Positions 4,891 through 47,682 of a DNA stretch of 47,682 nucleotides are shown one piece after another. Position numbers and translations under genes: made by a program. Source of the stretch: Actinomycetota bacterium (GTDB lineage: Bacteria > Actinomycetota > Actinomycetes > Actinomycetales > Microbacteriaceae); NCBI GenBank assembly GCA_013297625.1, contig JAAFHT010000008.1, forward strand, positions 1 through 47,682, in the 5' to 3' direction. The notes beneath the pieces were generated by a model. That model was not told where the DNA came from and made no database searches. It saw only the letters and a list, made by a program, of their open reading frames with translations. The stretch's first letter is position 1. Each line of letters begins with the position of its first letter.

Positions 4891-6192
<1,302 letters not shown>

Positions 6193-6295
6193 TGCGCCTC
6201 CTCGCGGAAAGTGATCAGGGTGTGATCGGTGTGTGGGGGCGGGGTCCCGAGAACGAGCCAGGGTGGTGGTGGCGGCTCGGGAGTGACCCGCCTAC

Positions 6296-6323
6296 AGCCT
6301 ATGGGGAAAGACCCACTAGTCAC
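6296..6323 (-). promoter_or_regulatory. Candidate gltA promoter
   Basis: On the minus strand GTGACT (4 of 6 to the -35 consensus) and TAGGCT are separated by 16 bases. They would give a 5' leader of roughly 95 bases before the Shine-Dalgarno-bearing gltA start. Repeated GTGATC words (6211-6226) lie in the leader, with no assigned role. Confidence 0.4.
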
Positions 6324-6343
6324 GTACGAGCCAACAGCAGGCG

Positions 6344-7471
6344 TCAAGCCTTAGAGAATTGCGCCAAACGGGTGGCCGCGGCGGCGATGCGCCCGTCGGT
6401 TGCCGTGAGCGCCAGCCGCACGTGCTGCGAGCTCTCGCCCTCGTAGAACGTGCCCGGAGCCGCGAGAATGCCGTGCTCGGCAAGCACGGCAATCGTGTCG
6501 AGAGCGGGCTCGCCGCGCGTGGCCCACAGGTAGAGCCCGGCCTCGGAATGATCGATGCGAAATCCCGCACTCTCGAGCGCCGCACTCAGCACGGCACGGC
6601 GCGCGCGGTAGCGTTCGCGCTGCTCGGCAACGTGCTGGTCATCGCCCAGCGCCGCGATCATCGCCGCTTGCACGGGCGCCGGCGGAATGAGCCCCACGTG
6701 CTTGCGCACTTCGAGCAACTGGCGCACGATCGCCGGGTCACCCGCGAGAAAAGCCGCCCGGTAACCGGCAAGATTCGACTGCTTGCTGAGCGAGTAGACG
6801 CTGAGCAGCCCCGTGTGGTCGCCATCGGTCACGCGGGGGTCGAGGATGCTCGGCACACGTGCGTCGTCGGCCGAGCTGCCCCACCGCTCGGGCTGCCAGC
6901 CCAGCTCGGCATAGCACTCGTCGTTCACGAGCACGGCACCGAGTTCGCGGGCTCGAGCAACCGCGGCTCGCAGAGCCGCGACGCCGAGCACGGCGCCTGT
7001 CGGGTTACCCGGGCTGTTGAGCCACACGAGGCGAGTGGAGGCGGGCCAGTCATCCGGGGAATCCGTGGCGACGCCGGCGGTGCGAGCGATGACCGAACCC
7101 ACGGCGTAGGTCGGGTAGGCCGTGCGCGGGTACACGACGGTGTCGCCGAGGCCGAGGCCGAGCAGCAGGGGCAGGAGGCCGACGAGCTCTTTGGATCCGA
7201 TCGTCGGCAGCACAGCATCCGTCGCCAAGCCCTCGACACCACGGCGGCGGGCGTACCAGGCGGCAATCGCGGCGCGCAGTTCGGGCGTGCCCATCGTTTG
7301 CGGATAAGCGTGAGCGTCGGTCGCGGCGACGAGCGCATCACGCACGAGCTGCGGAGTTGGGTCAACGGGAGAGCCGACCGAGAGATCGACGATGCCGTCA
7401 GCGTGCTCGCGCGCGCGGGCGGCGAAGGGTGCGAGAGAGTCCCAGGGAAAGTCGGGTAACTCGATCGTCAC
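6344..7471 (-). CDS. dapC: succinyldiaminopimelate transaminase
   Basis: A 375-residue fold-type I PLP aminotransferase. N152 lies in LNSPGNPTG, and the Schiff-base lysine is K230 in YSLSKQSN. The overall pattern matches actinobacterial DapC, which converts N-succinyl-2-amino-6-ketopimelate to N-succinyl-diaminopimelate with glutamate. The adjacent 7Fe ferredoxin gene is the classical actinobacterial neighbour. The GTG start at 7471 lacks a Shine-Dalgarno, but TAGTTT lies six bases upstream; the TAG of this box is the fdxA stop codon. dapC may therefore have its own leaderless promoter as well as read-through from fdxA. Confidence 0.92.
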   Translation of the reverse strand: MTIELPDFPWDSLAPFAARAREHADGIVDLSVGSPVDPTPQLVRDALVAATDAHAYPQTMGTPELRAAIAAWYARRRGVEGLATDAVLPTIGSKELVGLLPLLLGLGLGDTVVYPRTAYPTYAVGSVIARTAGVATDSPDDWPASTRLVWLNSPGNPTGAVLGVAALRAAVARARELGAVLVNDECYAELGWQPERWGSSADDARVPSILDPRVTDGDHTGLLSVYSLSKQSNLAGYRAAFLAGDPAIVRQLLEVRKHVGLIPPAPVQAAMIAALGDDQHVAEQRERYRARRAVLSAALESAGFRIDHSEAGLYLWATRGEPALDTIAVLAEHGILAAPGTFYEGESSQHVRLALTATDGRIAAAATRLAQFSKA

Positions 7472-7477
7472 AATCGA

Positions 7478-7483
7478 AAACTA
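7478..7483 (-). promoter_or_regulatory. -10 box of dapC overlapping the fdxA stop codon
   Basis: TAGTTT on the minus strand is six bases before the dapC GTG. Its first three bases are the fdxA TAG stop. Confidence 0.55.
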
Positions 7484-7798
7484 GGCCTGCGGCGGCAGCG
7501 CGGCGACGATCGGGTGGTCGCCCGCGATGACGCCGACCTTCGAGGCGCCGCCGGGCGAACCGATCTCGGCAAAGAACTCGACATTGGCCGTGTAGTAGTC
7601 GGCCCACTTCTCGGGAGTGTCGTCTTCGTAGTAGATGGCCTCGACGGGGCATACCGGCTCGCACGCACCACAGTCGACGCACTCGTCGGGGTGGATGTAC
7701 AGCATGCGGTCGCCCTCGTAGATGCAGTCAACGGGGCACTCGTCGATGCAGGCGCGGTCTTTCACGTCGACGCAGGGCAGGGCGATCACGTAAGTCAC
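7481..7798 (-). CDS. fdxA: 7Fe ferredoxin
   Basis: A 105-residue soluble electron carrier. C9, C17 and C21, with C25 as part of the surrounding set, form the first cluster region (CX7CX3CP). C40, C43, C46 and C50 form the second, in CVDCGACEPVCP. This is the 3Fe-4S plus 4Fe-4S arrangement of actinobacterial FdxA/FdxC proteins. The GTG start at 7798 overlaps the upstream gene's stop as GTGA, indicating translational coupling. A longer reading frame upstream has no ferredoxin homology and is rejected. Confidence 0.95.
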   Translation of the reverse strand: MTYVIALPCVDVKDRACIDECPVDCIYEGDRMLYIHPDECVDCGACEPVCPVEAIYYEDDTPEKWADYYTANVEFFAEIGSPGGASKVGVIAGDHPIVAALPPQA

Positions 7799-8232
7799 GG
7801 CAGTGGTCGATCCTCTTGTTGAACGAGAGCGGGCTGTTCCATCGTAACGCTCGCGCGCTGGGGAACCCGCTGGATGCGCGGCCAGCCGAGCGCAAAGAAG
7901 GCGATCACGGCGATGCCGCCGAGCCACGCGTAGCCCACAAGGTTGGCCGGAACGAGCACCGAGCCGCCCGTGGCCATGGCGAGGATTCCGGCGACGAGGC
8001 CCACGCCGATGGCACCCGCGGCCGCGGGAGTGCGCACACCACCCCACACGCGCAGACCCACGATGTAGAGCCCGATCGTGATGAGTGCGATCGCTACCCC
8101 CACGGGCGGCAACGACTGGTGCGTGAAGGTACCGACGAGCGCGAGCGCGGCACCTCCGCCCATGCAGAGCGCAATCACGCCCACCCGCGCGGGTGCGGCC
8201 ATGCTCTCGAAGTCAGGATCGAGTGAACTCAT
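7795..8232 (-). CDS. Small membrane protein, DUF6113-like
   Basis: A 145-residue protein with about four hydrophobic segments between residues 15 and 120 and a short charged C-terminal tail. Its position directly before fdxA-dapC matches the conserved membrane protein (DUF6113-like) often found there in actinobacteria; that family label rests mainly on position and topology. Its function is unknown. The ATG at 8232 has a weak AAGG upstream. Its stop overlaps the fdxA start by four bases, and it starts 14 bases after ilvE, so ilvE-8232-fdxA-dapC could be one transcript. Confidence 0.65.
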   Translation of the reverse strand: MSSLDPDFESMAAPARVGVIALCMGGGAALALVGTFTHQSLPPVGVAIALITIGLYIVGLRVWGGVRTPAAAGAIGVGLVAGILAMATGGSVLVPANLVGYAWLGGIAVIAFFALGWPRIQRVPQRASVTMEQPALVQQEDRPLP

Positions 8233-8246
8233 GATGCCTTACCGAC

Positions 8247-9359
8247 TCAGGCGTCGAGCCGCAGCATCCAGCCGTGCGGGTCGGGGCGGCGGCCGTATTG
8301 AATGTCAGTGAGCTCGGCGCGCAGCGACATCGTGAGCTCGCCGGCCGGGGCGTCGGCGCTACCGATCTCAAAGTCGGCGGCCTTGATCATCGCGATCGGA
8401 GTGACCACGGCGGCCGTGCCGCACGCGAACGCCTCGACGATGTCACCGGATGCCGCACCCTCACGCCACTCGTCGATGCTCACGCGGCGACGCTCAACCC
8501 GGTGCCCGCGGTCTTCGGCCAGCTGCAAGATCGAGTCGCGCGTGATGCCCTCGAGAATCGAGTCGCTTAGCGGAGTCACGAGCGTGCCGTCTTTGTAGAC
8601 GAGCACGACGTTCATGCCGCCGAGTTCTTCGAGCCACTTTCCTTCGACGGAGTCAAGGAAGAGCACCTGGGCGCAGCCGTGCTCGGCGGCCTCGGCTTGA
8701 GCGACGAGCGACGAGGCGTAGTTTCCGCCCGTCTTCGCGGCACCCGTGCCGCCCTTGCCGGCGCGCGAGTACTGCGTCGAGAGCCAGATCGAGACGGGCT
8801 TGACGCCTCCCGTGAAGTAGGCACCGGCGGGCGAGGCGATGACGTAGAACGCCACCTTGTGTGCCGGGCGCACGCCCAAGAACGCCTCTTTCGCGAACAT
8901 GAAGGGGCGCAAGTAGAGGCTCGTCTCGGGCGCGCTCGGCACCCACTCGCTGTCGACGGCGATGAGGTGCTTGAGAGCCTCGATGAAGTACTGCTCGGGC
9001 AGCTCGGGTAGGGCGAGTCGCTTGGCCGAGCGCTGCAGGCGACGCGCATTGGCGTCGGGGCGGAACGACCAAATCGAGCCGTCAGCGTGCCGGTAGGCCT
9101 TGAGGCCCTCGAAGATCTCTTGACCGTAGTGCAACACCGACGCGGCCGGGTCGAGCGTGATGGGGCCGTAGGCCTGCACGCGCGGGCGGTGCCAGCCGCC
9201 CATCTCGCTCCAGCAAATGTCGACCATGTGGTCGGTGAAGTGCTTGCCAAAGCCGGGGTCGGCGAGAATCGCGTCGCGCTCGGTGACCGCGCGGGCGGCA
9301 TCGTTGGGGGTCACGGCCCATGTGAGCTCGCGGGTGGCCATCGGCAGCAGATTCGTCAT
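8247..9359 (-). CDS. ilvE: branched-chain amino acid aminotransferase
   Basis: A 370-residue fold-type IV PLP aminotransferase carrying out the final transamination to leucine, isoleucine and valine. The PLP lysine is K209 in [12 protein letters not shown], and a FEGLKAYR motif is visible near residue 84. Length and ends match the actinobacterial IlvE group. The ATG at 9359 follows GAGGAA; an in-frame ATG six codons later is possible but has poorer spacing. It lies downstream of leuB (125-base gap) in the same orientation, matching a shared branched-chain role. Confidence 0.95.
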
Positions 9360-9484
9360 CGGGATTCCTCGAGAGGTCGCCGGCGGCCCGCAGGCCCCGG
9401 AAGAGCGTGGGTACAGCGTACCCCGCGGCGGTGCGCGGTTCTCAGGCCAATCGGGCGGCGCTGGCCGGGGTGCTGGCCGGGCGG

Positions 9485-10531
9485 CTAGGCCAGGCGCGCG
9501 GCGATCGCATCTCCGACTTCGCTCGTGCGGCGGGGCGACGCGCCCCGCTCGGCGAGGTCGGCGAGCACCGCGGTGCGGATGCGCGCCGCGGCATCCGTCA
9601 GCCCCTGCTGGTCGAGCAGAATCGCCACCGACAGAATCGCGGCGGTCGGGTCGGCTTTCTCTTGCCCCGCAATGTCGGGCGCCGAGCCGTGCACAGGCTC
9701 GACCATGCTCGGAAACGCTCCCGAGGGGTTGAGGTTGCCTGAGGCCGCGAGGCCGATGCCGCCGCCGATCGCCGCCGCGAGGTCGGTGAGGATGTCGCCG
9801 AACAGGTTGTCGGTGACGATGACGTCGAAGCGCGAGGGGTTCGTGGCCATGAAGATTGTCGCCGCGTCGACGTGCAAGTAGTCGACGGTGACGGATGCGA
9901 ACTCGGGTGCAACGCGATCAACCGTGCTCTGCCACAGCGCGCCGGCGTGCACGAGCACGTTGGTCTTGTGCACGAGCGTGAGCCGCTGACGTCGCGCCGC
10001 GGCCTGCGCGAAGGCGAAACGCACGACGCGCTCGACACCGTGGGCCGTGTTGATCGAGACCTCGGTGGCGACCTCGTGCGGGGTGCCCTGGCGGAATCGA
10101 CCGCCGTTGCCCACGTAGGGGCCCTCGGTGCCCTCGCGCACGACGACGAAGTCGACCTCGCCCGGGTCACTCAGCGGAGACGCGATGCCGGGGGCCAGCA
10201 GCGTGGGTCGCAGGTTTACGTAGTGATCGAACGCGAACCGCAGCTTGAGCAGCAGGCCGCGCTCGATGATGCCGCCCGCGAGGCGCGGGTCGCGGGGGTC
10301 GCCGCCGACAGCCCCGAAGAGAATCGCGTCGTGCTGCGCGAGCGCCGCGAGGGTCTCGTCGCTAAGAATCTCGCCGGTGGCCAAGTAGTGCTCGGCCCCG
10401 AGCGGGTAGACGGTCTCGGCCACGGTCACGTCGTCGCCCACGGCCGCGCGCAAAACCTTCAGCGCTTCTGCCGTCACCTCGGGGCCAACGCCGTCGCCGC
10501 CGATCACGGCGAGGTCAAGAGTGCGCTTCAC
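9485..10531 (-). CDS. leuB: 3-isopropylmalate dehydrogenase
   Basis: A 348-residue decarboxylating dehydrogenase of the isocitrate/isopropylmalate family, the third step of leucine synthesis. Motifs seen are GGDGVGPEV near the N-terminus, RLRF-type substrate contacts ([10 protein letters not shown]), [10 protein letters not shown] for metal binding, and [11 protein letters not shown] for NAD binding. The GTG at 10531 is chosen because GGAGGA sits five bases upstream. A start 30 codons further up has no homology and no ribosome binding site. Confidence 0.95.
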
Positions 10532-10683
10532 GGATTCCTCCAAGGGGGCGGGGGGCGGCCCGGAAACCCGGGGGCTGACGACGACTCCAGAGTAGTCGGG
10601 CACGCGACGGCCGTTTGTCAAGGGGGCGCGGCCCCGCGGGGTTGACCCATAGAGTCACCCAACGAATCGAAAGGGGCTCTCAC
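10532..10683. promoter_or_regulatory. leuB / small membrane protein divergent intergenic region
   Basis: For leuB, TACTCT (10589-10594, minus strand) could be a -10 box with TTGACA at 10616-10621, but the 21-base spacing is long. A 5-bp CCCGG/CCGGG hairpin (10559-10572) lies in the leuB leader. On the plus strand TTGACC (10642-10647) has no good -10 at normal spacing. The promoter calls are weak. Confidence 0.3.
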
Positions 10684-10941
10684 ATGAGCATGGGATTCGG
10701 AATATTCCTCTTGGCCCTCGGCGCCATCCTCGCCTTCGCGGTGCAGGTCAGCGTCGAGTGGATCGCTCTCACGACCACGGGGTACATCCTCATGGTCGCG
10801 GGCGTCATCATGATTGTGATCGGCGGGGTACTGATGTCGCGAAAGCGCTCATCGGTCACGACGCAACACACGCAGGTTGACCCCGCCGCTGGCGAGAAGG
10901 TGACGCGCCGCGAATCGGTCGCGAGCGACCCGGTGGAATAA
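10684..10941 (+). CDS. DUF6458-like small membrane protein
   Basis: An 85-residue protein with two closely spaced hydrophobic helices (about residues 4-22 and 30-52) joined by a short turn. A basic segment (SRKRSS) and a polar tail follow. The order GFGIFLLALGAILAFAV... GYILMVAGVIMIVIG matches the actinobacterial DUF6458 type, whose function is not known. The ATG at 10684 is preceded by AAAGGGG at suitable spacing; longer in-frame starts have none. It is convergent with serA, with only four bases between stops. Confidence 0.7.
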   Translation: MSMGFGIFLLALGAILAFAVQVSVEWIALTTTGYILMVAGVIMIVIGGVLMSRKRSSVTTQHTQVDPAAGEKVTRRESVASDPVE

Positions 10942-10945
10942 GGCC

Positions 10946-12538
10946 CTACTGCTCGACGACCGTGATCTCGCGCATGACGCTCGCGTCGATCGCCGTGCGC
11001 AGTCTCTCGAGCAACTCGTCGGGCACGCGCGAGTCGACGGTCAGCACGCTCAGTGCTTGACCGCCGGCCGTGCGCCGCGCGATCTGCATGCCCGCGATGT
11101 TGATCGAGGCCTCGCCAAAGGCTTTGCCATAGATCGCGACGATGCCGGGGCGGTCGGTGTAGATCATGACGATGAAATGCTCAGCCATGGGCACTTCAAC
11201 GTCGTAGCCGTTGATCTCGACGATCTTCTGCACTTGCTTGGCGCCGACGAGCGTGCCACTCACCGACAACTGCGTTCCGTCGCTCAGCGAGCCGCGGATC
11301 GTCAGCAGGTTGCGGTATTCCTCGCTCGCCGCATCCGTCAGCAGGCGCACGGCAACCCCGCGCTGCTCGGCTAGTAGCGGAGCGTTGACATAGCTGACCT
11401 GCTCGCTCGAGATGCGGCTGAAGATGCCCTTGAGCGCCGCGAGCTTGAGCACGTTGACGTCGTGCGCGACGATCTCGCCGCGCACCTCAACGTCGATGCT
11501 CGCAAACGAAGCATCGGCGAGTGCCGCGAATACCTGGCCGAGCTTTTCCATTAGCGGGATGCCCGGACGCACGCTCGGGTCGATGACGCCCCCCGCCACG
11601 TTGACGGCATCCGGCACGAGCTCACCGTCGAGCGCGAGGCGCACCGACTTCGCGACCGAGACTCCGGCCTTCTCTTGCGCCTCATCGGTCGACGCACCGA
11701 GGTGCGGCGTGAGCTGGATGGTGGGGAGGTCGAGCAGCGGCGAACCCACAGGCGGCTCGTGCACGAACACGTCGAGGCCAGCGCCGGCAATGCGGCCGGA
11801 GACGAGGGCCTCGCGGAGGGCATCCTCGTCGATGATGCCTCCACGGCTGGCGTTGACGATGCGCAACGAGGGCTTCGCGAGGGCGAACTGTGCCGTGCTG
11901 ATGAGGTTGGTCGTCTCGGGCGTCTTCGGAATGTGAATGGTGATGAAGTCACTGCGTTGCATGAGCTCGTCGAGCGTCACGAGCGTGACGCCGAGTTGCT
12001 GCGCGCGCGCCGGCGGCACGTAGGGGTCGTAGGCGACGAGCTCAACACCGAACGCGGCGAGGCGCTGGGCAACGAGCACGCCAATGCGGCCGAGGCCCAC
12101 AACGCCCACCGTCTTTTCGTAGAGCTCGACGCCCGTGTACTTCGAGCGCTTCCACTCCCCCGCCTTCATCGAGGCGTTCGCGTCGGGCACGTGGCGAGCG
12201 AGCGACAGCAAGTGCGCAATCGCCAACTCGGCGGCGCTGATGACGTTGCTGGTCGGAGCGTTGACGACCATGACACCCGCGCTCGTGGCGGCGGGCACGT
12301 CGACGTTGTCGAGACCCACGCCCGCGCGCGCGATCACCTTGAGGGCGCTCGCGGCGGCGATGGCTTCGGCATCCATTTGCGTCGCTGACCGGATGAGCAC
12401 GGCGCTCGCCTCGGCCAACGCGGCCAGCAGCGCGGGTCGATCGGTTCCGTCAACGTGACGAATGTCGAAGTCGGGCCCGAGGGCGTCGACGGTGGCGGGG
12501 CTGAGTTCTTCGGCGATGAGCACGACCGGCTTGGGCAC
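10946..12538 (-). CDS. serA: D-3-phosphoglycerate dehydrogenase
   Basis: A 530-residue long-form SerA, the first committed step of serine synthesis. The N-terminal catalytic domain contains the NAD motif GVVGLGRIG (about residue 145) and NASRGGIIDE. It is followed by an allosteric substrate-binding domain and a C-terminal ACT domain (FIVMIYTDRPGIVAIYGKAFGE), expected to bind serine. The length matches the mycobacterial type. The GTG at 12538, with AGGA nine bases upstream, is chosen over a start 23 codons earlier whose extension has no family similarity. Confidence 0.96.
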   Translation of the reverse strand: MPKPVVLIAEELSPATVDALGPDFDIRHVDGTDRPALLAALAEASAVLIRSATQMDAEAIAAASALKVIARAGVGLDNVDVPAATSAGVMVVNAPTSNVISAAELAIAHLLSLARHVPDANASMKAGEWKRSKYTGVELYEKTVGVVGLGRIGVLVAQRLAAFGVELVAYDPYVPPARAQQLGVTLVTLDELMQRSDFITIHIPKTPETTNLISTAQFALAKPSLRIVNASRGGIIDEDALREALVSGRIAGAGLDVFVHEPPVGSPLLDLPTIQLTPHLGASTDEAQEKAGVSVAKSVRLALDGELVPDAVNVAGGVIDPSVRPGIPLMEKLGQVFAALADASFASIDVEVRGEIVAHDVNVLKLAALKGIFSRISSEQVSYVNAPLLAEQRGVAVRLLTDAASEEYRNLLTIRGSLSDGTQLSVSGTLVGAKQVQKIVEINGYDVEVPMAEHFIVMIYTDRPGIVAIYGKAFGEASINIAGMQIARRTAGGQALSVLTVDSRVPDELLERLRTAIDASVMREITVVEQ

Positions 12539-39514: not shown

Positions 39515-41380
39515 TCACGCGGTGACCTGCGTGAGGGTTGGAGCGAACGCGGCGAGAGCATCCCGTCGCCGCGCGCGACCGGCGGCCAGGCGCGCGACGA
39601 TGAGCGAGCCCGCGGCGAGGAGGCCCATGACGGCCACCGCCGCGACAACGCGCGAGGGGTCTCCGCCCGCGAGCAGGGCCTGCATGCCATCGACCGCGTA
39701 GGTGAGCGGCAGCACCGCGCTGAGCGCGGGGAACGGGTCTGCGAGCGCGGCAATCGGAATGATGCCGCCCGTCGCCACAATCTGCACCGCGAGCAGCAAG
39801 AGCGAGACCACGAGCCCGGCGCGCCCGAGCGTCAGGGTGAGCGCCGCGTGAAACGCCGTGAAGGCGAGCGCGATGACGGTCGTGAGCCCCAGCGTGGCCG
39901 GCAGCAGCGCCCAATCGACTCCACTCACGAGGTGCATGAGCAGCGTCACCAGGGCGGCCTGAGCGAGCGCAATCAACGACGCTCGACCGATCGCGCGGCG
40001 CACGATGATGCCGCCCGCCGCCGACGTGCCGATGACACCGCGCGCCGCCGGACGCAGAGCCAGGAAGGTCGCGAGCGCGCCGATCCAGAGGCCGATGGGC
40101 ACGAGGGTTTCGGCGATGACCGACCCCACACCGTCGACGGCGTTCGTGCGCGTCGACTCCACGACAACGGGCTCGCTCGCGACCGAGCTGTCGCCCGCCT
40201 CGGGAACCTGGCCCGCGCCTGACGAGAGGCCCGACGCGAGTTCGTCAACGCCGCTCGCGAGCGACTCGGCGCCCGAGGTGATCTCGCTCGTACCGCCGGC
40301 GAGAGCACCGAGCCCACTCGCAAGTTCTGACGTGCCGCTGCGCAACGCAGCACCGCCCGCGGCGAGCTCTGCCGCACCGCCCGCACTCTGCCCGAGGCCC
40401 GACTGAATGCCATCGAGGCCGCCGTTGAGCTGAGGGATGACCGCGCCGGCCGTGCCCGCGAGCACCTGAGCGGCACCGAGAGCCTCAGCGAAAGCCTGCT
40501 GATCGGCCGCGCTGAGGTTCGACGATGCCACGGCGGCACTCAGCGCCGACAAGTCACCCGCGAGAGCGCCAGCGCTGCCGGGAATACCGGCGGCCGCCTG
40601 CTGCAGGGGGTCGAGCTGCGTTGCGCCCGCACGCAATTGGGCGAGCCCGCTGGAGAGCCCACTGACGCCGAGGGTGTAGTCGGTGACTCCACTCGAGAGG
40701 TCACGGGCTCCCCCGGCCGATGCGCGTGCCCCGGCGGTCAAGTCGACGAGACCCGCGCTGAGCGCACTCGCCCCGTCGCCGAGTTGCGTGGCGCCGTCGG
40801 CCGCCGTGTCAAGCGCGGCCCCGAGCTCTCCGAGTCCACTCGTCAACCCATCGAGGTATCGAGCCGTAATCTCTGCCCCAAACTGCTGGGCGAGACCGCT
40901 ACCGACGGCCTGCACGACCGAACCCGCGAGATAGCTGTGGGCGTCATCCGTGACAACCTGCAGTTGCGCCTGCACGGGGTCGGGCGAACCGATCGTCAGG
41001 AGCGATGCCGAGAAGTCGCTCGGAATCGTCAAGACGGCGTAGACCTCGCCGCGTTCGAGGGCGGCGTCGGCTTCGGCTGAGCTCGTGACGTTCCAGTCGA
41101 AGCCCGTGTCGTCGCCGCCCGTGAGTTCGGTGACGAGCTGGCGACCGGCGAATACGATCTGGTCGTTGCCGTCAGCGTCGGTCGTCGTCAGCAGCTCATC
41201 GTTGTTGACGACGGCGGCCGGGATGCGCTCGAGAGCCGACGAGTCGTTGCCGACGGCGGCCAGCGCGATGCCGACGAGCGCGAGCGGAACAGCGACGGCT
41301 GCGGCCATCGTCAGCCAGCGGCGCAAGCGCCCGCGATGCGCGAGCGGCGTGGGGACGAGGGGAGCTTCGGCGGCGGTCAT
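39515..41380 (-). CDS. YhgE/Pip-family ABC-2-type membrane protein
   Basis: A 621-residue protein with one N-terminal helix (about residues 23-43) and a large extracytoplasmic region of about 390 residues. That region has a glycine/serine/leucine repeat zone (about 170-395) with recurring SGL-L--G motifs that would form a long helical stalk. Five or six helices (about 430-600) follow. This is the YhgE/Pip layout, related to ABC-2 permeases and phage-infection protein; the cargo is unknown. It overlaps the MMPL gene by ATGA and probably works with it. Confidence 0.88.
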   Translation of the reverse strand: MTAAEAPLVPTPLAHRGRLRRWLTMAAAVAVPLALVGIALAAVGNDSSALERIPAAVVNNDELLTTTDADGNDQIVFAGRQLVTELTGGDDTGFDWNVTSSAEADAALERGEVYAVLTIPSDFSASLLTIGSPDPVQAQLQVVTDDAHSYLAGSVVQAVGSGLAQQFGAEITARYLDGLTSGLGELGAALDTAADGATQLGDGASALSAGLVDLTAGARASAGGARDLSSGVTDYTLGVSGLSSGLAQLRAGATQLDPLQQAAAGIPGSAGALAGDLSALSAAVASSNLSAADQQAFAEALGAAQVLAGTAGAVIPQLNGGLDGIQSGLGQSAGGAAELAAGGAALRSGTSELASGLGALAGGTSEITSGAESLASGVDELASGLSSGAGQVPEAGDSSVASEPVVVESTRTNAVDGVGSVIAETLVPIGLWIGALATFLALRPAARGVIGTSAAGGIIVRRAIGRASLIALAQAALVTLLMHLVSGVDWALLPATLGLTTVIALAFTAFHAALTLTLGRAGLVVSLLLLAVQIVATGGIIPIAALADPFPALSAVLPLTYAVDGMQALLAGGDPSRVVAAVAVMGLLAAGSLIVARLAAGRARRRDALAAFAPTLTQVTA

Positions 41381-44238
41381 GAGCCGCTCCTTTCAGCAAC
41401 AGCGGATGCAGAGTCAAGCGTCACGGTCGTCGCACTCTCGGCGACCGGGCTGCCGGGTTCGCGGCCCCACACCCGCACGACGGGAACAGGCGCGAGGCGC
41501 TGCACGACGGCATCGAGCTGATCGATGTCATCGGGCTTGAGCGAGTCATCGCGGTGGTCGAGCACGATCACGGGGGTGCCATCGAGGGTGGCCACGGCGG
41601 CGAGCACGAGAGCCCTGCGCCTCGCGTCGAGGCTGGCGACGGGCGTCTCGGGGTCAGCGACACCGCGCGGCTCGATGCCGGCCGCCGCGAGGGTTGCGGC
41701 GAGTCGGGCGATCCAGCGCCGCGTGCGCCGCCACCCGCGGGGGTAACCGGCCGCAAGCGCGATGCGCTCGCTCACGAGGGCTGCGATCGTGATGCTCGGC
41801 GCGAGCCGGTCTCCGCTCACATCGACGAGAGTGACGCGGCGCGAGGCGCGACCCGACTCCGACGGCAGCACGGCATCGGCGACGACCGCGAGACCCGAGC
41901 CAGGAGGCAGGTACCCCGCGAGGGTGGCACCGGCGATTCGTCGGTGCGCTGGCTCGCCCACGAGATCGACGCGCGATCCCGGTGCCGCGCTGAGCGACAG
42001 CTCAACGTCGGTGCCGCTCAGGCCGAGGCGGTCGGCCACGATGACGGCGTCGCCGTGACTCGCCGCCCACTCGCGGTGATCGCGGTGGTGGCGAAGCTTC
42101 TCGCCTTCGACGTCGAGGTCGGGCAACGCGCGGTCGAGCGAGCGCGGGAACCACCACGCGGCTTTGCCGAAGAGTGTCATGAGCGCAGGGCCTAGTGTCA
42201 TGCGCACGAGGAACGCGTCGATCGCAATGCCCACGGCGAGGCTCAGGGCGATGGGCTTGATGAGTCCGGCACCCTCCGGCACGAAGGCTGCGAAGACGAA
42301 GAACATGATGAGCGCCGCAGCCGTGACGACGCGCGCGCCGTTAGCAAAGCCGTCATCGATCGCCTGGCGGGCATCACCCGTGCGCACGAATTCTTCGCGC
42401 ATGCCAGAGACCAAGAAGACCTCGTAGTCCATCGCGAGCCCGAAGAGCACGGCCATGAGAATGATGGGCATGAAGCTCAAGATGGGGCCGGGCTCGGCGT
42501 GCAACAGCTCGGCGCCCCATCCCCATTGAAAGACCGCGACGGTGATGCCCATGGCGCTACCGACCGAGAGCAAGAAGCCCAAGGCGGCCTTGACCGGAAC
42601 GAGCACCGAGCGGAAGACCGCCATCAGCAGAATGACCGAGAGGCCGACGACGACGAGCCCGAAGGGAATGAGCGCGCCGGTGAGTCGCGTCGAGATGTCG
42701 ATGCCGACGGCCGTGACCCCCGTGACCGCCATGGGCGTGCCGAACTCAGCCTCGATGGCGTCGCCCGCAGCGCGCAAGTCGGCAACGACGACCTTGGTTG
42801 CGGGGTCATCGGGCGCCGTTTCGGGTGCCACCTGGAAGATCGCGGTTTCGAGCCCCGGCGAGGGAATGCCCTGGCTCACGCTCGCGACCCCATCGACCTG
42901 TTCAAGCTCGCCCCGAATGGCCGCGAGGTCATCAAGAATGTCGGTCGTCTGCGTGATGTCGAGCGTGACGAGCAACGGCCCAGCAGTGCCAGGGCCGAAC
43001 GCGTCCGCGATGAGGTCGTACGCCTCACGCTGCGTCGATCCCGCGGGCTCACTGCCGCCGTCGGGCAAGTTGAGGTCGAGCGAGAAGGCCGGAATCGAGA
43101 GCACCCCGAGCACGGCAATGACCGAAACACTGGTGAGCACGGGGCGCTTCATGACGCCGCGCACCCAGCGGCGGCCCATGGTGGGGCCGGCCGTCGAGTC
43201 GGGGTGAGCGCGCTTCCAGGCGCGTGATCCTTCTTTGGGGGCAAGCTTTGCGCCCGCGACGCCGAGGAAGGCGGGCAAGAGGGTGACGGCTGCGGCGATG
43301 GCGACGAGCACCGCGAATGCGGCTCCGACACCCATGACCGAGAGGAACGGCACGCCCACGACAAGCAGGCCCAGCAGCGCGATGATGACGGTCGCGCCCG
43401 CGAAGACAACCGCGCTACCCGCCGTGCCCACGGCAACGGCTGCCGACTCGGCCGGATCCATGCCGCGCGCCAGTTGCCCTCGATGTCGCGACACGATGAA
43501 GAGGGCATAGTCAATGCCGACCGCGAGGCCAATCATGACGGCGAGCAGGGGTGCAGAACTCGAGACCGGCAAGAACGCGGCGAGAGCGAGAATCGCACCC
43601 ATGACGATCCCTACGCCGATGAGTGCCGAGGCCAGCGGCATCCACGCGGCCCGCAGTGATCCGAACGTGACGACGAGCACCGCGCCGGCGAAGAGCACAC
43701 CGAGCACCTCGGTGACGGTGAGGCCCACGGTCGTGTCTTGAAAGACCTGCCCGGCGAACTCGACGCGAACATCCACCTTTTCGGCCGTCGCGAGGAGCTG
43801 CGCGATCGTTTCCTCGCTGACGTTTGACGAGGCACTGTCGAGTTGAACGCGCACGATTGCGATCGTGCCCTCGTCGCTCACTTGACCATTAGCGAACTCG
43901 TCGAAGGGGCCGAGCACCGAGTCGACGCCGTCGACCGTCGTCAGAGCGCGCTCGAGCGCGTCAATCTCGTCACGGATGCTCGCATCAGTCACCTCTGAGC
44001 CCTTAGGCGCCACAACCACGGCCTGGGCGCTCGCGCCCGAAACGGCCGGAAAGAGTGCGTCAAGTTGATCGAGCGCTACTTGCGACTCGGTGCCCGGAAT
44101 GCTGAAGGTTTCATCGGTCTGGCCGCCGAGGGCCACGCCACCACCGATCGCCGCGGCGAACAACAGCAGCCACGTCACGATGACCAGGCGCGCGCGCGAG
44201 TAGGAATACCGGCCCAGCCGGTAGAGCAACGTAGCCAA
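41377..44238 (-). CDS. MMPL-family (RND) exporter with degenerate ABC ATPase-like C-terminal domain
   Basis: A 953-residue protein. Residues 1-715 are a normal 12-helix MMPL transporter with two extracytoplasmic loops; GIDYALFIVSRHR and GLAMDYEVFLVSGMR carry the proton-relay aspartates. Residues about 716-953 are extra and soluble. They follow the order of an ABC nucleotide-binding domain: an antiparallel strand region, VDLVGEPAHRRIAG where a P-loop should be (757-770), TLAGYLPPGSG, a helical part, ASLDARRRALVLAAV at the signature position (868-882) and PVIVLDHRDD at Walker B (889-898). The P-loop lysine, LSGG and Walker B glutamate are absent. A TTG start follows AAGGAG overlapping the tetR stop. 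Confidence 0.88.
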   Translation of the reverse strand: MATLLYRLGRYSYSRARLVIVTWLLLFAAAIGGGVALGGQTDETFSIPGTESQVALDQLDALFPAVSGASAQAVVVAPKGSEVTDASIRDEIDALERALTTVDGVDSVLGPFDEFANGQVSDEGTIAIVRVQLDSASSNVSEETIAQLLATAEKVDVRVEFAGQVFQDTTVGLTVTEVLGVLFAGAVLVVTFGSLRAAWMPLASALIGVGIVMGAILALAAFLPVSSSAPLLAVMIGLAVGIDYALFIVSRHRGQLARGMDPAESAAVAVGTAGSAVVFAGATVIIALLGLLVVGVPFLSVMGVGAAFAVLVAIAAAVTLLPAFLGVAGAKLAPKEGSRAWKRAHPDSTAGPTMGRRWVRGVMKRPVLTSVSVIAVLGVLSIPAFSLDLNLPDGGSEPAGSTQREAYDLIADAFGPGTAGPLLVTLDITQTTDILDDLAAIRGELEQVDGVASVSQGIPSPGLETAIFQVAPETAPDDPATKVVVADLRAAGDAIEAEFGTPMAVTGVTAVGIDISTRLTGALIPFGLVVVGLSVILLMAVFRSVLVPVKAALGFLLSVGSAMGITVAVFQWGWGAELLHAEPGPILSFMPIILMAVLFGLAMDYEVFLVSGMREEFVRTGDARQAIDDGFANGARVVTAAALIMFFVFAAFVPEGAGLIKPIALSLAVGIAIDAFLVRMTLGPALMTLFGKAAWWFPRSLDRALPDLDVEGEKLRHHRDHREWAASHGDAVIVADRLGLSGTDVELSLSAAPGSRVDLVGEPAHRRIAGATLAGYLPPGSGLAVVADAVLPSESGRASRRVTLVDVSGDRLAPSITIAALVSERIALAAGYPRGWRRTRRWIARLAATLAAAGIEPRGVADPETPVASLDARRRALVLAAVATLDGTPVIVLDHRDDSLKPDDIDQLDAVVQRLAPVPVVRVWGREPGSPVAESATTVTLDSASAVAERSGS

Positions 44239-44249
44239 CGAGGGTCTCC

Positions 44250-44807
44250 TTAAGCGATGCGGGATTCGGCGGGCACGAGCAAGTCGTGCAAGATCTCAAG
44301 AAGCGCAGAGCGCACTTCGTCGATCGGGATCTCGCCGTTGAGTCCCAGTCGCTCGGCGGCCGCCAGGGTGTAGGCGACACCGCCGAATGCCACGCCAAAA
44401 CGCAGCTTTTCAAGAGTCGAGCCGCTCGCGAGCCGAAACAGCTCAGAGATGCGGCGCATAAGGAGCGTGGCCCGGTGCATGACCGGAACGTCGTCGAGCG
44501 TGGCGCCCTGATTGATGACGAGCGGCACGACCTGCCGATGCGTCAGCAAGAGGTCAACGAAGCGCTCGACGAAATCTCCGTGGCGCAGGGCACCCGCCTG
44601 GTCAATGGACACGATGAGGGTGTCGAGGTCGTCGAGCGCGGGGTTGACGATCTCAGCAAGCAGTCGATCTTTTGACTCGAAGTGATAGAGCACGCTGGCT
44701 TTCGACATGCCGGCGAGGTCAGCGATGCGCTGCAGAGACGTGGCCGCGAAGCCCGCCGTCGCAAACTCGGCCAGAGCGATGGCGCGCAGTTCGTCGTGAC
44801 GGGACAT
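44250..44807 (-). CDS. TetR-family transcriptional repressor
   Basis: A 185-residue regulator with the N-terminal helix-turn-helix TSLQRIADLAGMSKASVLYHFESKDRLLAEI (about residues 22-52) and a variable ligand-binding domain. The ATG at 44807 is preferred; GTG codons at 44813 and 44816 would add two or three residues. TACCGT lies seven bases before the ATG. Two palindromic operator-like sites lie just upstream at its presumed -35 region. The TAA stop lies in the Shine-Dalgarno of the MMPL gene 11 bases away, so it heads a tetR-MMPL-YhgE operon and probably represses it. Confidence 0.93.
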   Translation of the reverse strand: MSRHDELRAIALAEFATAGFAATSLQRIADLAGMSKASVLYHFESKDRLLAEIVNPALDDLDTLIVSIDQAGALRHGDFVERFVDLLLTHRQVVPLVINQGATLDDVPVMHRATLLMRRISELFRLASGSTLEKLRFGVAFGGVAYTLAAAERLGLNGEIPIDEVRSALLEILHDLLVPAESRIA

Positions 44808-44814
44808 GTTCACC

Positions 44815-44820
44815 ACGGTA
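44815..44820 (-). promoter_or_regulatory. -10 box of tetR
   Basis: TACCGT on the minus strand is seven bases before the ATG at 44807 and directly beside the operator at 44821. Confidence 0.45.
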
Positions 44821-44944: not shown

Positions 44945-45142
44945 GTGCGCAAGTTCTTGTTCAACGGCGCGGTCTTGAGCGCGGCGTTTTCCGCGGTCGG
45001 CGTCGTCAACGCCACGCGCAACGGCCCTCGTGACTGGCGCCTCGCTCTCATGTGGGTCAGCTGGGGAATTAGCGTGGCCATCGCCGTCGGCACGGTCATC
45101 GAAGAGAACCGCGAGCACGACCCGCTCGAGCTCGACGACTAG
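44945..45142 (+). CDS. Small probable membrane protein
   Basis: A 65-residue protein with a short N-terminal hydrophobic stretch (residues 4-22), a basic NATRNGPRDWR segment and a second hydrophobic helix (about 33-52), ending in an acidic tail. No family is recognised. A clear GAGGAG precedes the GTG start at 44945, and TAGCGT (44915-44920) is a possible -10 box giving a short leader. It is convergent with the LysE gene and the two stop codons share a CTAG. Confidence 0.65.
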   Translation: MRKFLFNGAVLSAAFSAVGVVNATRNGPRDWRLALMWVSWGISVAIAVGTVIEENREHDPLELDD

Positions 45143-45774
45143 CTGGTCGTGGCAGTGGCGGCCATGACGCCGCCGAGGCCAATGAGCGCCGTCCCGCCGA
45201 TCGCACGCATGCCGCTCATGCGCCGCGGGTTCGTCGCGAACCAGTCACGCGCCGCACCCGCCGCGAGCGCATAGACACTGTCGCCGGCGACACCCAGCAC
45301 CAAGAAGATCGCGCCGAGCTCAAGCATCTGTAGCACCGCGCTGCCCGCGCCCGGAACAACAAACTGTGGCAGCGCGGCCACGAAGAACACCACGGTCTTC
45401 GGGTTGCTGATGCCGACCACGAAGCTCTCGCGCAGCAGGCGTGCCGGGCGCGTCGACACGGCCGCGGCATCGGTACCCGCCGTCGCGTGTCGGTGTCGAA
45501 TGGCCTGGATGCCCAACCAGATGAGCACGCCGGCCCCCACGATCTTCAGCACCGTGAACAGCACGACCGACTGCGCCACGATCATTCCTAGCCCTGCGGC
45601 CACCGCGATGATCTGGATGGCGACGCCCGCCGCGTTGCCCAGCACGCTCAGCAGCGCGCCCTTCTTGCCGAGCACGAGCGCGCGGCCAATGACGAAGAGC
45701 ACGCTCGGCCCGGGGATGGCGATGATGACGATCGACGCCACGACGAAGGCGAGCAACTCGGGCAGCGGAACCAT
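45139..45774 (-). CDS. LysE/RhtB-family amino acid exporter
   Basis: A 211-residue protein with six predicted helices. The family signature IPGPSVLFVIGRALVLGKKGALLSVLGNA lies at residues 20-48, and the central GISNPKTVVFFVAALPQFV at about 120-138. It is likely to export an amino acid or derivative; the substrate is undefined. The ATG at 45774 is preceded six bases away by TACGCT and has no Shine-Dalgarno, so it is probably leaderless. A second family member follows upstream. Confidence 0.88.
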   Translation of the reverse strand: MVPLPELLAFVVASIVIIAIPGPSVLFVIGRALVLGKKGALLSVLGNAAGVAIQIIAVAAGLGMIVAQSVVLFTVLKIVGAGVLIWLGIQAIRHRHATAGTDAAAVSTRPARLLRESFVVGISNPKTVVFFVAALPQFVVPGAGSAVLQMLELGAIFLVLGVAGDSVYALAAGAARDWFATNPRRMSGMRAIGGTALIGLGGVMAATATTS

Positions 45775-45813: not shown

Positions 45814-46425
45814 CTACAACTGCCAGGGCAGCAAGACGCCGATGAGTACGAAGAGACCGCCGGTCGCGCGGTTGAACCAGCGGCCCGCCCGCGCGAGCAC
45901 CGGTTGCAGCGACTGCGAGAGCGCCGCGACCACGAGCTCGAACACGAACTCGATGACGATGAACGTGCTAGCCATGATCGCGAACTGCACCACCAAGTCG
46001 CGCTGCGGGTCGATGAACTGTGGCAAGAAGGCGACGAAGAAGAGAATGCCCTTGGGGTTCGTGACGGCAGCCAGTAGCCCCTGCTGAAACAGTGACCACC
46101 GCGACGCCGTGGGGCGCTCGGTGGATGCTGCGACCGCGATCGCCGGCGCCCGCCACACCATCACGCCCAAGTAGACGAGGTAGGCGCCGCCGACCCACTT
46201 GAGCACCACGAGCAAATCAGGAAAGACCGTGAGCAGCGCCCCGATGCCAAACATCGCCACCGCGATGACGATCAAGAAGCCCAGCGCGCCTCCGAGCACC
46301 GTGAACACGGTGCGGCGCGCGCCGTACAGCGCCCCGTGTGTGAGAGCGAGCAACCCGTTGGGGCCGGGCGTGAACGACAGGCCGATCGCCGCGACGAGAA
46401 AGACCAGCCAGGTGTCGAGAGTCAC
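45814..46425 (-). CDS. LysE/RhtB-family amino acid exporter
   Basis: A 203-residue six-helix protein with SFTPGPNGLLALTHGALYGARR near the N-terminus and AVTNPKGILFFVAFLPQFI in the middle, the same signatures as its downstream neighbour but clearly diverged. The GTG at 46425 is chosen because an upstream extension is arginine/serine-rich with no family match. The two exporters are in the same orientation with 39 bases between them, though the downstream one has its own promoter-like box. Confidence 0.87.
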   Translation of the reverse strand: MTLDTWLVFLVAAIGLSFTPGPNGLLALTHGALYGARRTVFTVLGGALGFLIVIAVAMFGIGALLTVFPDLLVVLKWVGGAYLVYLGVMVWRAPAIAVAASTERPTASRWSLFQQGLLAAVTNPKGILFFVAFLPQFIDPQRDLVVQFAIMASTFIVIEFVFELVVAALSQSLQPVLARAGRWFNRATGGLFVLIGVLLPWQL

Positions 46426-46453
46426 CCGACCATCCTGCCCCTCTCCAGAGGCG

Positions 46454-47682
46454 TTACGGCACCATCCAGCCGAGCGCGCCGGGAATCGACTGCAGCACGA
46501 TGAGCACGGTGATGAGCGCGAGCAGGCCCAAGCTCCACGGCAAGAGTTTGCGCAACAGCGTGCCCTCCGAGCCGACCATGCCAACGGCAGCGGCGGCGAC
46601 CGCGAGGTTCTGCACCGAGAGCATCTTGCCGAGCACACCAGCCGACGAGTTCGCCGCTGCCATGAGCACGGGCGGCAGACCCACTTGTTCTGCCGCCGCG
46701 ACCTGCACGGGGCCGAAGAGCACGTTCGACGAGGTGTCAGAGCCGGTCAGGGCCACGCCAATCCAGCCGATGATCGGCGAGAGCACGACGAAGAATCCAC
46801 CGGCCGAGGCGAGCGCGACACCGAGCGAGGTGGCTTGACCCGACAGGTTCATGACAAACGAGAGGCCGAGCACCGACGCGACGGTGACGATGGTCCAGCG
46901 CAATTGGTGCAGCGTCGAGCCGTAGGCCTTCAAGGCCGTGCGCGGCACGATGCGATACAGCAGCGCCGTCAGCAGGCCCGAGATCAGCAGCAGGGTGCCG
47001 GTCGCCTTGAGGGTGTCGAAGTGCATGATCTGCGCGCCCGCGGGCTCTCCCGCGGCCGTCACGACATCGAGCCCCGGCCAGGGGAAGATCACGGTGCCGA
47101 CCACCGCGAGCCACTGCTTCACCGCCGGAATCTGAGCGATCGAGAACACGAGCATGATGATGAGATACGGCGCAACTGACATGAGCACCTCGCGCGCCGG
47201 CGGGCGCTGCACCGCGGGGGCGCCGGCCTCGACGGCCCCACTGATGCCCACGAGTTCGGCGGGCTGCCACACGCGCAGCATGAGCAGCACGGCCGTGATC
47301 GTAGCCACGGCGGCCACGACGTCGGTCAGTTCGACGGCGAAGAAGTTCGAGGTCACGAACTGGGCGAGGCCGAAGACGATGCCGGCCACGAGCGCAACAG
47401 GCCAGGTCTGGCGCACGCCGCGGCGGCCATCCACGAGAAAAACGAGGATGAGCGGCACGAGCACGGCGATGAACGGCGTCTGTCGGCCCGCCATCGACGA
47501 CAGGTCTTGCAAAGGTAGACCCGTGACGCCCGAGAGCGCGATGACGGGGGCGGCCAGCGCTCCGAACGCCACGGGAGCAGTATTGGCGAGCAACGACACG
47601 AGCGCCGCCTTGAGCGGAGCCATGCCGGCCGCGAGCAGCATCGCGGCCGAGATCGCCACGGGGGCGCCGAAGCCCGCGAGCG
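46454..47682 (-). CDS. L-lactate permease family transporter, partial
   Basis: At least 409 codons, with the N-terminus beyond the right edge of the window. It has many hydrophobic helices and the LctP-type motifs FGAPVAISAAMLLAAGM, LTGSDTSSNVLFGPVQ and AANSSAGVLGKMLS, which identify a lactate/glycolate proton symporter. It is truncated by the window only; no frameshift is seen. The stop is 28 bases before the LysE-family gene. Confidence 0.9.
   Translation of the reverse strand, partial: LAGFGAPVAISAAMLLAAGMAPLKAALVSLLANTAPVAFGALAAPVIALSGVTGLPLQDLSSMAGRQTPFIAVLVPLILVFLVDGRRGVRQTWPVALVAGIVFGLAQFVTSNFFAVELTDVVAAVATITAVLLMLRVWQPAELVGISGAVEAGAPAVQRPPAREVLMSVAPYLIIMLVFSIAQIPAVKQWLAVVGTVIFPWPGLDVVTAAGEPAGAQIMHFDTLKATGTLLLISGLLTALLYRIVPRTALKAYGSTLHQLRWTIVTVASVLGLSFVMNLSGQATSLGVALASAGGFFVVLSPIIGWIGVALTGSDTSSNVLFGPVQVAAAEQVGLPPVLMAAANSSAGVLGKMLSVQNLAVAAAAVGMVGSEGTLLRKLLPWSLGLLALITVLIVLQSIPGALGWMVP

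Follow-up and report, generated by a model that had tools for sequence, protein, structure and literature searches.

An MMPL transporter with a predicted, degenerate ABC nucleotide-binding domain beside a YhgE/Pip gene in Microbacteriaceae

The window, by which we mean the whole 47,682-nucleotide stretch of DNA that was analysed, carries on its minus strand three tightly packed genes that code, in this order, for a TetR regulator, an MMPL protein and a YhgE/Pip protein:

44250-44816, minus strand: TetR-family regulator, first gene of the unit (Pfam TetR_N, E 2.8e-12)
41377-44238, minus strand: MMPL protein of 953 aa with a TTG start (ORF; Pfam MMPL)
39515-41380, minus strand: YhgE/Pip permease-like protein of 621 aa (TIGR03061, TIGR03062, Pfam ABC2_membrane_3)

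The gap between the TetR ORF and the MMPL start is 11 nt, and the start of the YhgE ORF overlaps the MMPL stop by 4 nt (ATGA). An ATGA or GTGA overlap was found at 92 of 102 homologous fused MMPL-YhgE junctions, a count in which some genomes are represented by duplicate copies. These co-directional genes, in which the MMPL protein carries the pseudo-ABC domain described below, probably constitute an operon. The assignment of the last gene was based on the N- and C-terminal YhgE/Pip models of NCBIfam, both of which scored above cut-off (TIGR03061, E 2.2e-33, 115.2 bits for a cut-off of 96.15; TIGR03062, E 1.3e-39, 136 bits for a cut-off of 102.2), and the same ORF matched Pfam ABC2_membrane_3 (E 1.5e-16). 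The genome to which the window belongs gave a single MMPL match (E <= 1e-30) and a single YhgE match (E <= 1e-10). Three further ORFs of the same orientation lie upstream of TetR: two adjoining ones for LysE-type translocators (45139-45774 and 45814-46638; 8.1e-25 and 1.1e-31 in Pfam) and one, overlapping, that is lactate permease-like (46454-47659; 6.5e-93).

The first three quarters of the MMPL protein correspond to an RND-type pump with two Asp-Tyr pairs:

42124-44238, minus strand: MMPL (RND-type) pump core, residues 1-705 (Pfam MMPL; MmpL3 PDB chain)
43507-43512, minus strand: Asp243-Tyr244 pair, first half of the presumed proton relay (aligned with an MmpL3 DY pair)
42424-42429, minus strand: Asp604-Tyr605 pair, second half of the presumed proton relay (aligned with an MmpL3 DY pair)

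With an E value of 7.6e-83 and 278.6 bits against a gathering score of 20.5, this core belongs to the Pfam family MMPL, and its best match to the MmpL3 chains in the PDB had an E value of 2.7e-50. MmpL proteins use the proton gradient by means of Asp-Tyr pairs. The aspartate and the tyrosine of both D243-Y244 and D604-Y605, which we take to be the transmembrane proton relay of MMPL transporters, were present in all 29 aligned proteins. An earlier note on this DNA had described a fusion to an MMPL protein, and this description holds, with the Asp-Tyr pairs of the pump intact.

Beyond the 705-residue core, the protein continues for another 248 residues, in agreement with the approximately 240 extra C-terminal residues that had been claimed for it. 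This tail contains the following features:

41380-42123, minus strand: tail, residues 706-953, consisting of a short linker (PDLDVEGE...) and a predicted degenerate ABC nucleotide-binding domain (NBD) (AF2; VIA)
about 41929-41958, minus strand: P-loop remnant GEPAHRRIAG, with Arg at the Lys position (sequence; alignments)
about 41611-41637, minus strand: position of the ABC signature, ASLDARRRA, without LSGGQ (alignment with bridging and canonical sequences)
about 41557-41571, minus strand: Walker B strand VIVLD, then H in place of the catalytic Glu (AF2 strand 185-189 of the tail; alignment)

The linker motif P-x-x-D-x-E-G was considered as part of the fused domain and rejected, since most tailless MMPL proteins also end with it, which makes it an MMPL feature.

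Taken alone, the tail matched no Pfam family. Among 31 tails, three matched Pfam ABC_tran at E values up to 1 (best 0.021), and that of the window was not one of them. Against NCBIfam, the window tail retrieved nothing other than weak ABC ATPase models (best E 0.022), and a PDB sequence search returned chance-level matches only. Hence, the window sequence by itself is insufficient proof of ABC identity, and the resemblance goes beyond chance because of the AF2 fold, the Foldseek and VIA matches, and bridging homologues that reach Pfam ABC_tran. The AF2 model of the tail, built on the 31 tails, had a pLDDT of 92.5 and a pTM of 0.89, and the full-length MMPL model had overall scores of 82.8 (pLDDT) and 0.74 (pTM), which carry no information on the placement of the domain relative to the membrane part. 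The best match listed by VIA was the ABC ATPase 4yer_A (Z 17.0, 3.2 A over 212 residues), followed by MlaF, FtsE, ECF and LptB subunits. The VIA listing consisted of ABC-type chains only, which in itself leaves room for other folds: its 50 entries (Z 15.3-17.0) were ABC-type proteins by their titles, including SufC and a few others that are presumably ABC-type. Of the 1023 PDB matches that Foldseek returned at E <= 0.001, the best 50 were nearly throughout ABC-type ATPases or transporters. The tail of the window MMPL protein is thus confidently predicted to have the fold of an ABC NBD. The earlier note had proposed this fold from the letters of the sequence; AF2, Foldseek and VIA bear it out, and an unrelated fold, the outcome that it had named as refuting, was not obtained.

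The same note had quoted GEPAHRRIAG, ASLDARRRA and a Walker B lacking its Glu, letters that are correct in the sequence, and had concluded that the ATPase motifs are gone, as they indeed are. The window tail has no Walker A motif GxxGxGK[ST], no LSGGQ and no Glu after Walker B. When the patterns G....GK[ST], xSGG and hhhhDE were searched as regular expressions in 82 full-length fused tails, each was found in 0 of 82, and none of the MMPL ORFs in 32 named loci contained G..G.GK[ST]. The counts for the 82 tails, like those given below for 55 stand-alone partners, refer to ORFs; some genomes are present twice, L216 and later loci are excluded, and two loci with interrupted frames (L110, L134) fell outside the linked group. 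Based on the motifs, the ATPase motor of the tail is apparently dead. Fused tails of 181-228 aa were found in 21 ORFs from other families of the order, and alignment indicated that in several of them the N-terminal half runs straight into the Walker-B-like strand. Some fused versions therefore seem, from the alignment, to have lost the helical subdomain including the signature. Several fused tails from other families or genera (L136-L153, L162, L163, L169, L175) resemble a 'headless' NBD.

NBD pairs in which one of the two sites is degenerate are familiar, for instance from TAP and CFTR, and bacterial genomes encode many other ABC ATPases. The domain could accordingly form such an asymmetric pair under YhgE with a catalytic ABC ATPase whose gene lies elsewhere, so that ATP would still drive the permease. 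We consider such an arrangement distinctly unlikely here. A script check found no window ORF of at least 150 aa with both the P-loop G..G.GK[ST] and xSGG, and there is thus no catalytic ATPase gene at hand in the cluster; furthermore, the window tail has lost both its P-loop and its signature, which leaves little for a composite ATP site.

To place the fused protein in its family, we examined 150 genomes of Microbacteriaceae, and 70 of them matched the tail at E <= 0.001. Among these matches, the weaker ones lay in shorter ORFs, many of which are probably ordinary ABC ATPases. The nearest named relatives of the tail came from a pond MAG of Microbacteriaceae, then from Yonghaparkia and Microcella, and we take all relatives bearing genus or family names to be Microbacteriaceae. 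A tailed MMPL gene was present in 49 of 52 neighbourhoods taken from the family genomes; all 49 had a YhgE gene and 46 had a BLAST homologue of the TetR gene. Likewise, 31 of the 32 named loci contained YhgE, the remaining one being truncated within the MMPL gene where its contig stops. TetR was present in 31 of them as well, the other one being cut by a contig end. Interrupted MMPL, tail or YhgE reading frames were seen in the assemblies at L110, L115 and L134, reflecting either errors or real interruptions.

As a control set, 50 genomes were chosen from the 150 rather than drawn at random; the tail match was strong in 30 of them, weak in 6 and absent in 14. After split profile matches of one gene had been merged by hand, these genomes comprised 80 MMPL places and 83 YhgE places. 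At 48 of the 80 MMPL places, YhgE followed directly downstream, with 588-1089 nt between the MMPL core and YhgE, and the domain was present at all 48 (37 from the earlier loci and 11 from a later check). Conversely, the domain was absent from all 30 examined MMPL places without YhgE (of 32, the two left out, G058:C1 and G045:C2, being fragments), where the proteins extended only 8-58 aa beyond the core; the tie to YhgE put forward in the earlier note is in line with this distribution, and the second outcome that the note had named as refuting, a tail widespread on MMPL proteins unconnected with YhgE, was not seen among these 30 places. The domain also appeared without MMPL: 32 of the 35 YhgE places not located behind an MMPL gene had an NBD-like ORF directly upstream. 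The tail profile detected 23 of these ORFs; the other nine were recovered only with a second profile, for which 44 stand-alone partners detected by the first had been used. In total, an NBD gene or domain was directly linked to YhgE at 80 of the 83 places in the 50 chosen genomes. The three without an NBD-like partner directly upstream were L168, L182 and L187. At L182 and L187, the ORF upstream of YhgE resembles a TetR regulator by eye. At L166, two YhgE genes (5871-8468 on the minus strand and 8964-11905 on the plus strand) stand back to back, each with its own stand-alone NBD-like ORF.

A similar picture emerged in the class, where 27 of 197 genomes matched the tail of L216, a fused locus from another order, at E <= 1e-18. 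YhgE was present at all 28 class loci with the domain, of which three had it fused to MMPL and 25 had it as a stand-alone ORF. In the stretches examined for fifteen other class MMPL loci (L217-L231), the domain and YhgE were both absent. Two MMPL genes from another class family (L224, 5484-8123; L225, 5275-7929) carry a different tail of 153-158 aa, with no YhgE in the stretch, and the tail of L224 matched Pfam CarboxypepD_reg below the cut-off (5.4e-6). Taken together, the surveys confirmed that a conserved MMPL - pseudo-ABC - YhgE module exists in Microbacteriaceae and in some other actinobacteria.

The constant company of these genes could also be read differently, with the pseudo-NBD serving MMPL alone, in regulation or as a platform, and YhgE being just a functionally related neighbour. 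The domain is, after all, covalently part of MMPL, the cytoplasmic C-terminal regions of MmpL proteins are able to bind partners, and the short versions without a helical subdomain suit a platform better than an NBD dimer. We nevertheless regard this explanation as unlikely, as a separate domain ORF stands beside YhgE without MMPL at 32 of 35 family places and 25 of 28 class loci, and the domain is missing from the 30 examined MMPL places that lack YhgE. Both observations tie the domain to YhgE rather than to MMPL.

The stand-alone partners offer a view of how the ATPase motifs changed. Among the 25 stand-alone homologues of the class, 23 had Arg at the position of the P-loop Lys, and regular expressions found GK[ST] in one, xSGG in none and hhhhDE in two. 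Among the 55 stand-alone ORFs beside YhgE, GK[ST] occurred in 15, GK or GR followed by S/T in 29, xSGG in one (L126), hhhhDE in one and hhhhDD in 24. The hhhhDE of L159 proved to be a chance string located before the P-loop, outside Walker B, and a P-loop-like string of L140 was a chance match located after the real P-loop region. Judging from these motifs, degeneration among the class stand-alone partners is common but not universal. Since the stand-alone partners are mostly degenerate too, the entire YhgE-linked group is unusual, the window version being one that lacks every one of the three motifs. The earlier note had mentioned separate ABC ATPase genes beside YhgE/Pip and an inactive, fused domain here. 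Separate partner genes do adjoin YhgE; these are mostly degenerate as well, however, so to contrast separate, active ATPases with fused, dead ones is too simple.

Despite their degeneration, 8 of 10 stand-alone partners reached the Pfam ABC_tran cut-off. L216 proved particularly informative, since it combines in one chain matches to MMPL (1e-87) and ABC_tran (4.1e-15), both past the Pfam cut-offs, with an intact P-loop (GPSGSGKT), and has YhgE directly downstream. The same P-loop was found in L237, from a second genome of the same genus; Walker A is thus kept in the fused proteins L216/L236 and L237 of this other order, and the short fused tail of L175 has kept GGHHSGKS. The fused L216, with its intact P-loop and both domains past their cut-offs, indicates that a real ABC domain was fused and degenerated later. 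The tail derives from a P-loop-bearing ABC domain. A phylum search with A1 gave no fused match outside the window's order; the later search with the MMPL core found one, showing that the phylum search was insensitive. In a tree of 126 domains and one outgroup row, fused and stand-alone domains were separated by one change, so that one fusion is enough to explain them, although this was a quick tree with a single outgroup row, and long branches limit its reading.

The gradual disappearance of the motifs raises the question of whether the domain is a decaying, functionless relic hitchhiking on MMPL. Motif loss does look stepwise, with Lys in the fused L216, L237 and L175, Arg in many stand-alone partners and neither in the window's family. 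In 10 pairs of relatives, the tail also evolves faster than the core, with omega values of 0.10-0.58 for the tail and 0.03-0.21 for the core (1.2 to 3.9 times the core value). All 10 tail values are nonetheless below 1; the tail is under purifying selection, looser than that on the pump core. Thirteen columns are invariant among the 31 tails, in which R61 of the tail is invariant and R62 nearly so. Given this conservation, a predicted fold that is compact and confident (AF2), and the retention of the domain at all 48 YhgE-linked MMPL places, we find a relic highly improbable.

In the most likely reading, with docking and transport both putative, the pseudo-NBD is an adaptor that connects YhgE to the pump, which suggests that two transporter classes are wired into one machine. 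In ABC-2 transporters, the permease is driven through NBDs that sit on its cytoplasmic coupling helices. The tail domain would be the partner NBD of YhgE, an ABC-2-like permease, and may still dock on its cytoplasmic side while no longer burning ATP. Being covalently joined to the last helix of MMPL, it would hold pump and permease together, and the proton-driven MMPL cycle could then power or gate export, either through YhgE or along it, of a hydrophobic compound of the envelope. Such docking, in a hybrid exporter under putative TetR control, had also been proposed in the earlier note. The pseudo-NBD might merely hold the two proteins together, gate YhgE or transmit force. We put the chances slightly better than even that it is the docked, ATP-free partner of YhgE and couples it to the proton-driven MMPL for export. 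The main point against the adaptor comes from the short tails. In ordinary ABC transporters, the helical subdomain is part of the docking groove, and the short tails seem to be without it; they would need another mode of docking. The constant gene order is also compatible with two transporters merely serving one pathway. A bolder and on balance doubtful version of the adaptor would have an ABC-2-type permease re-powered: the ATP motor was fused to an RND/MMPL pump, catalysis was lost, and mechanical coupling now feeds in proton-motive force, the YhgE partners of actinobacteria being more broadly a family of pseudo-ATPases.

The proton-driven and ATP-driven superfamilies, normally separate, meet here in a single polypeptide and its partner gene, with an ATP motor that is apparently dead. 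YhgE/Pip is not known to have a clear transport mechanism, and its Pip members in Firmicutes are known as single genes without an NBD. The family thereby gains a partner that accompanies it regularly, together with a testable proposal for this partner's role. If true, the view of YhgE partners as pseudo-ATPases would help explain the seeming lack of an ATP motor in YhgE/Pip. In addition, the series running from an intact P-loop (fused) to Lys-to-Arg (stand-alone), motif-free fused and fused without a helical subdomain offers a natural experiment in the passage from ATPase to scaffold.

A study on Saccharopolyspora hirsuta and cholesterol reports a 3.82-fold increase for the YhgE/Pip gene F1721_04135 and a 3.33-fold increase for the MMPL gene F1721_04140, which are near each other by locus tag (PMC9782250). 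Sterols would therefore be a tentative first guess for the inducer of the TetR regulator. Searches of titles and abstract starts in the open-licence PMC literature found neither a fusion of MMPL with an ABC domain nor a module of MMPL and YhgE described. The MMPL - pseudo-ABC - YhgE module is a new combination of known parts, for which we infer a mechanism.

Compared with known systems, the window protein resembles MmpL3 and its MMPL/RND relatives in its 705-residue core and in the retention of the Asp-Tyr pairs. In the alignments listed for MmpL3 chains, the best stretches do not go past residue 712, leaving the tail outside, and the protein scores 191 of 1400 bits with the MmpL3 equivalog model, far below its cut-off. 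The window YhgE is like other members of the YhgE/Pip family (PIP, TC 9.B.74), with both TIGR domains above cut-off, and differs by its link to an MMPL-fused pseudo-NBD; the PIP family is reported to have homologues within the ABC-2 superfamily (PMC3924187). The predicted fold of the tail is shared with the ATPases of ABC-2 exporters of the NodI or DrrA kind. When the fused L216 tail and four of the stand-alone partners were scanned against NCBIfam, the top models were NodI (three), DrrA (one) and a putative F420-0 ABC ATPase (one), although none of the best 25 models for each of these five members reached its cut-off and the five remained far below the cut-offs of the NodI/DrrA-kind models. 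The window tail differs from such ATPases in having no LSGGQ, no Walker B Glu and no P-loop Lys. In this respect it recalls the degenerate NBDs of TAP1 and CFTR, which likewise combine an ABC fold with lost catalytic residues. Those domains, however, pair with a second, catalytic NBD in one ABC transporter, whereas the domain described here is joined to an RND-type pump.
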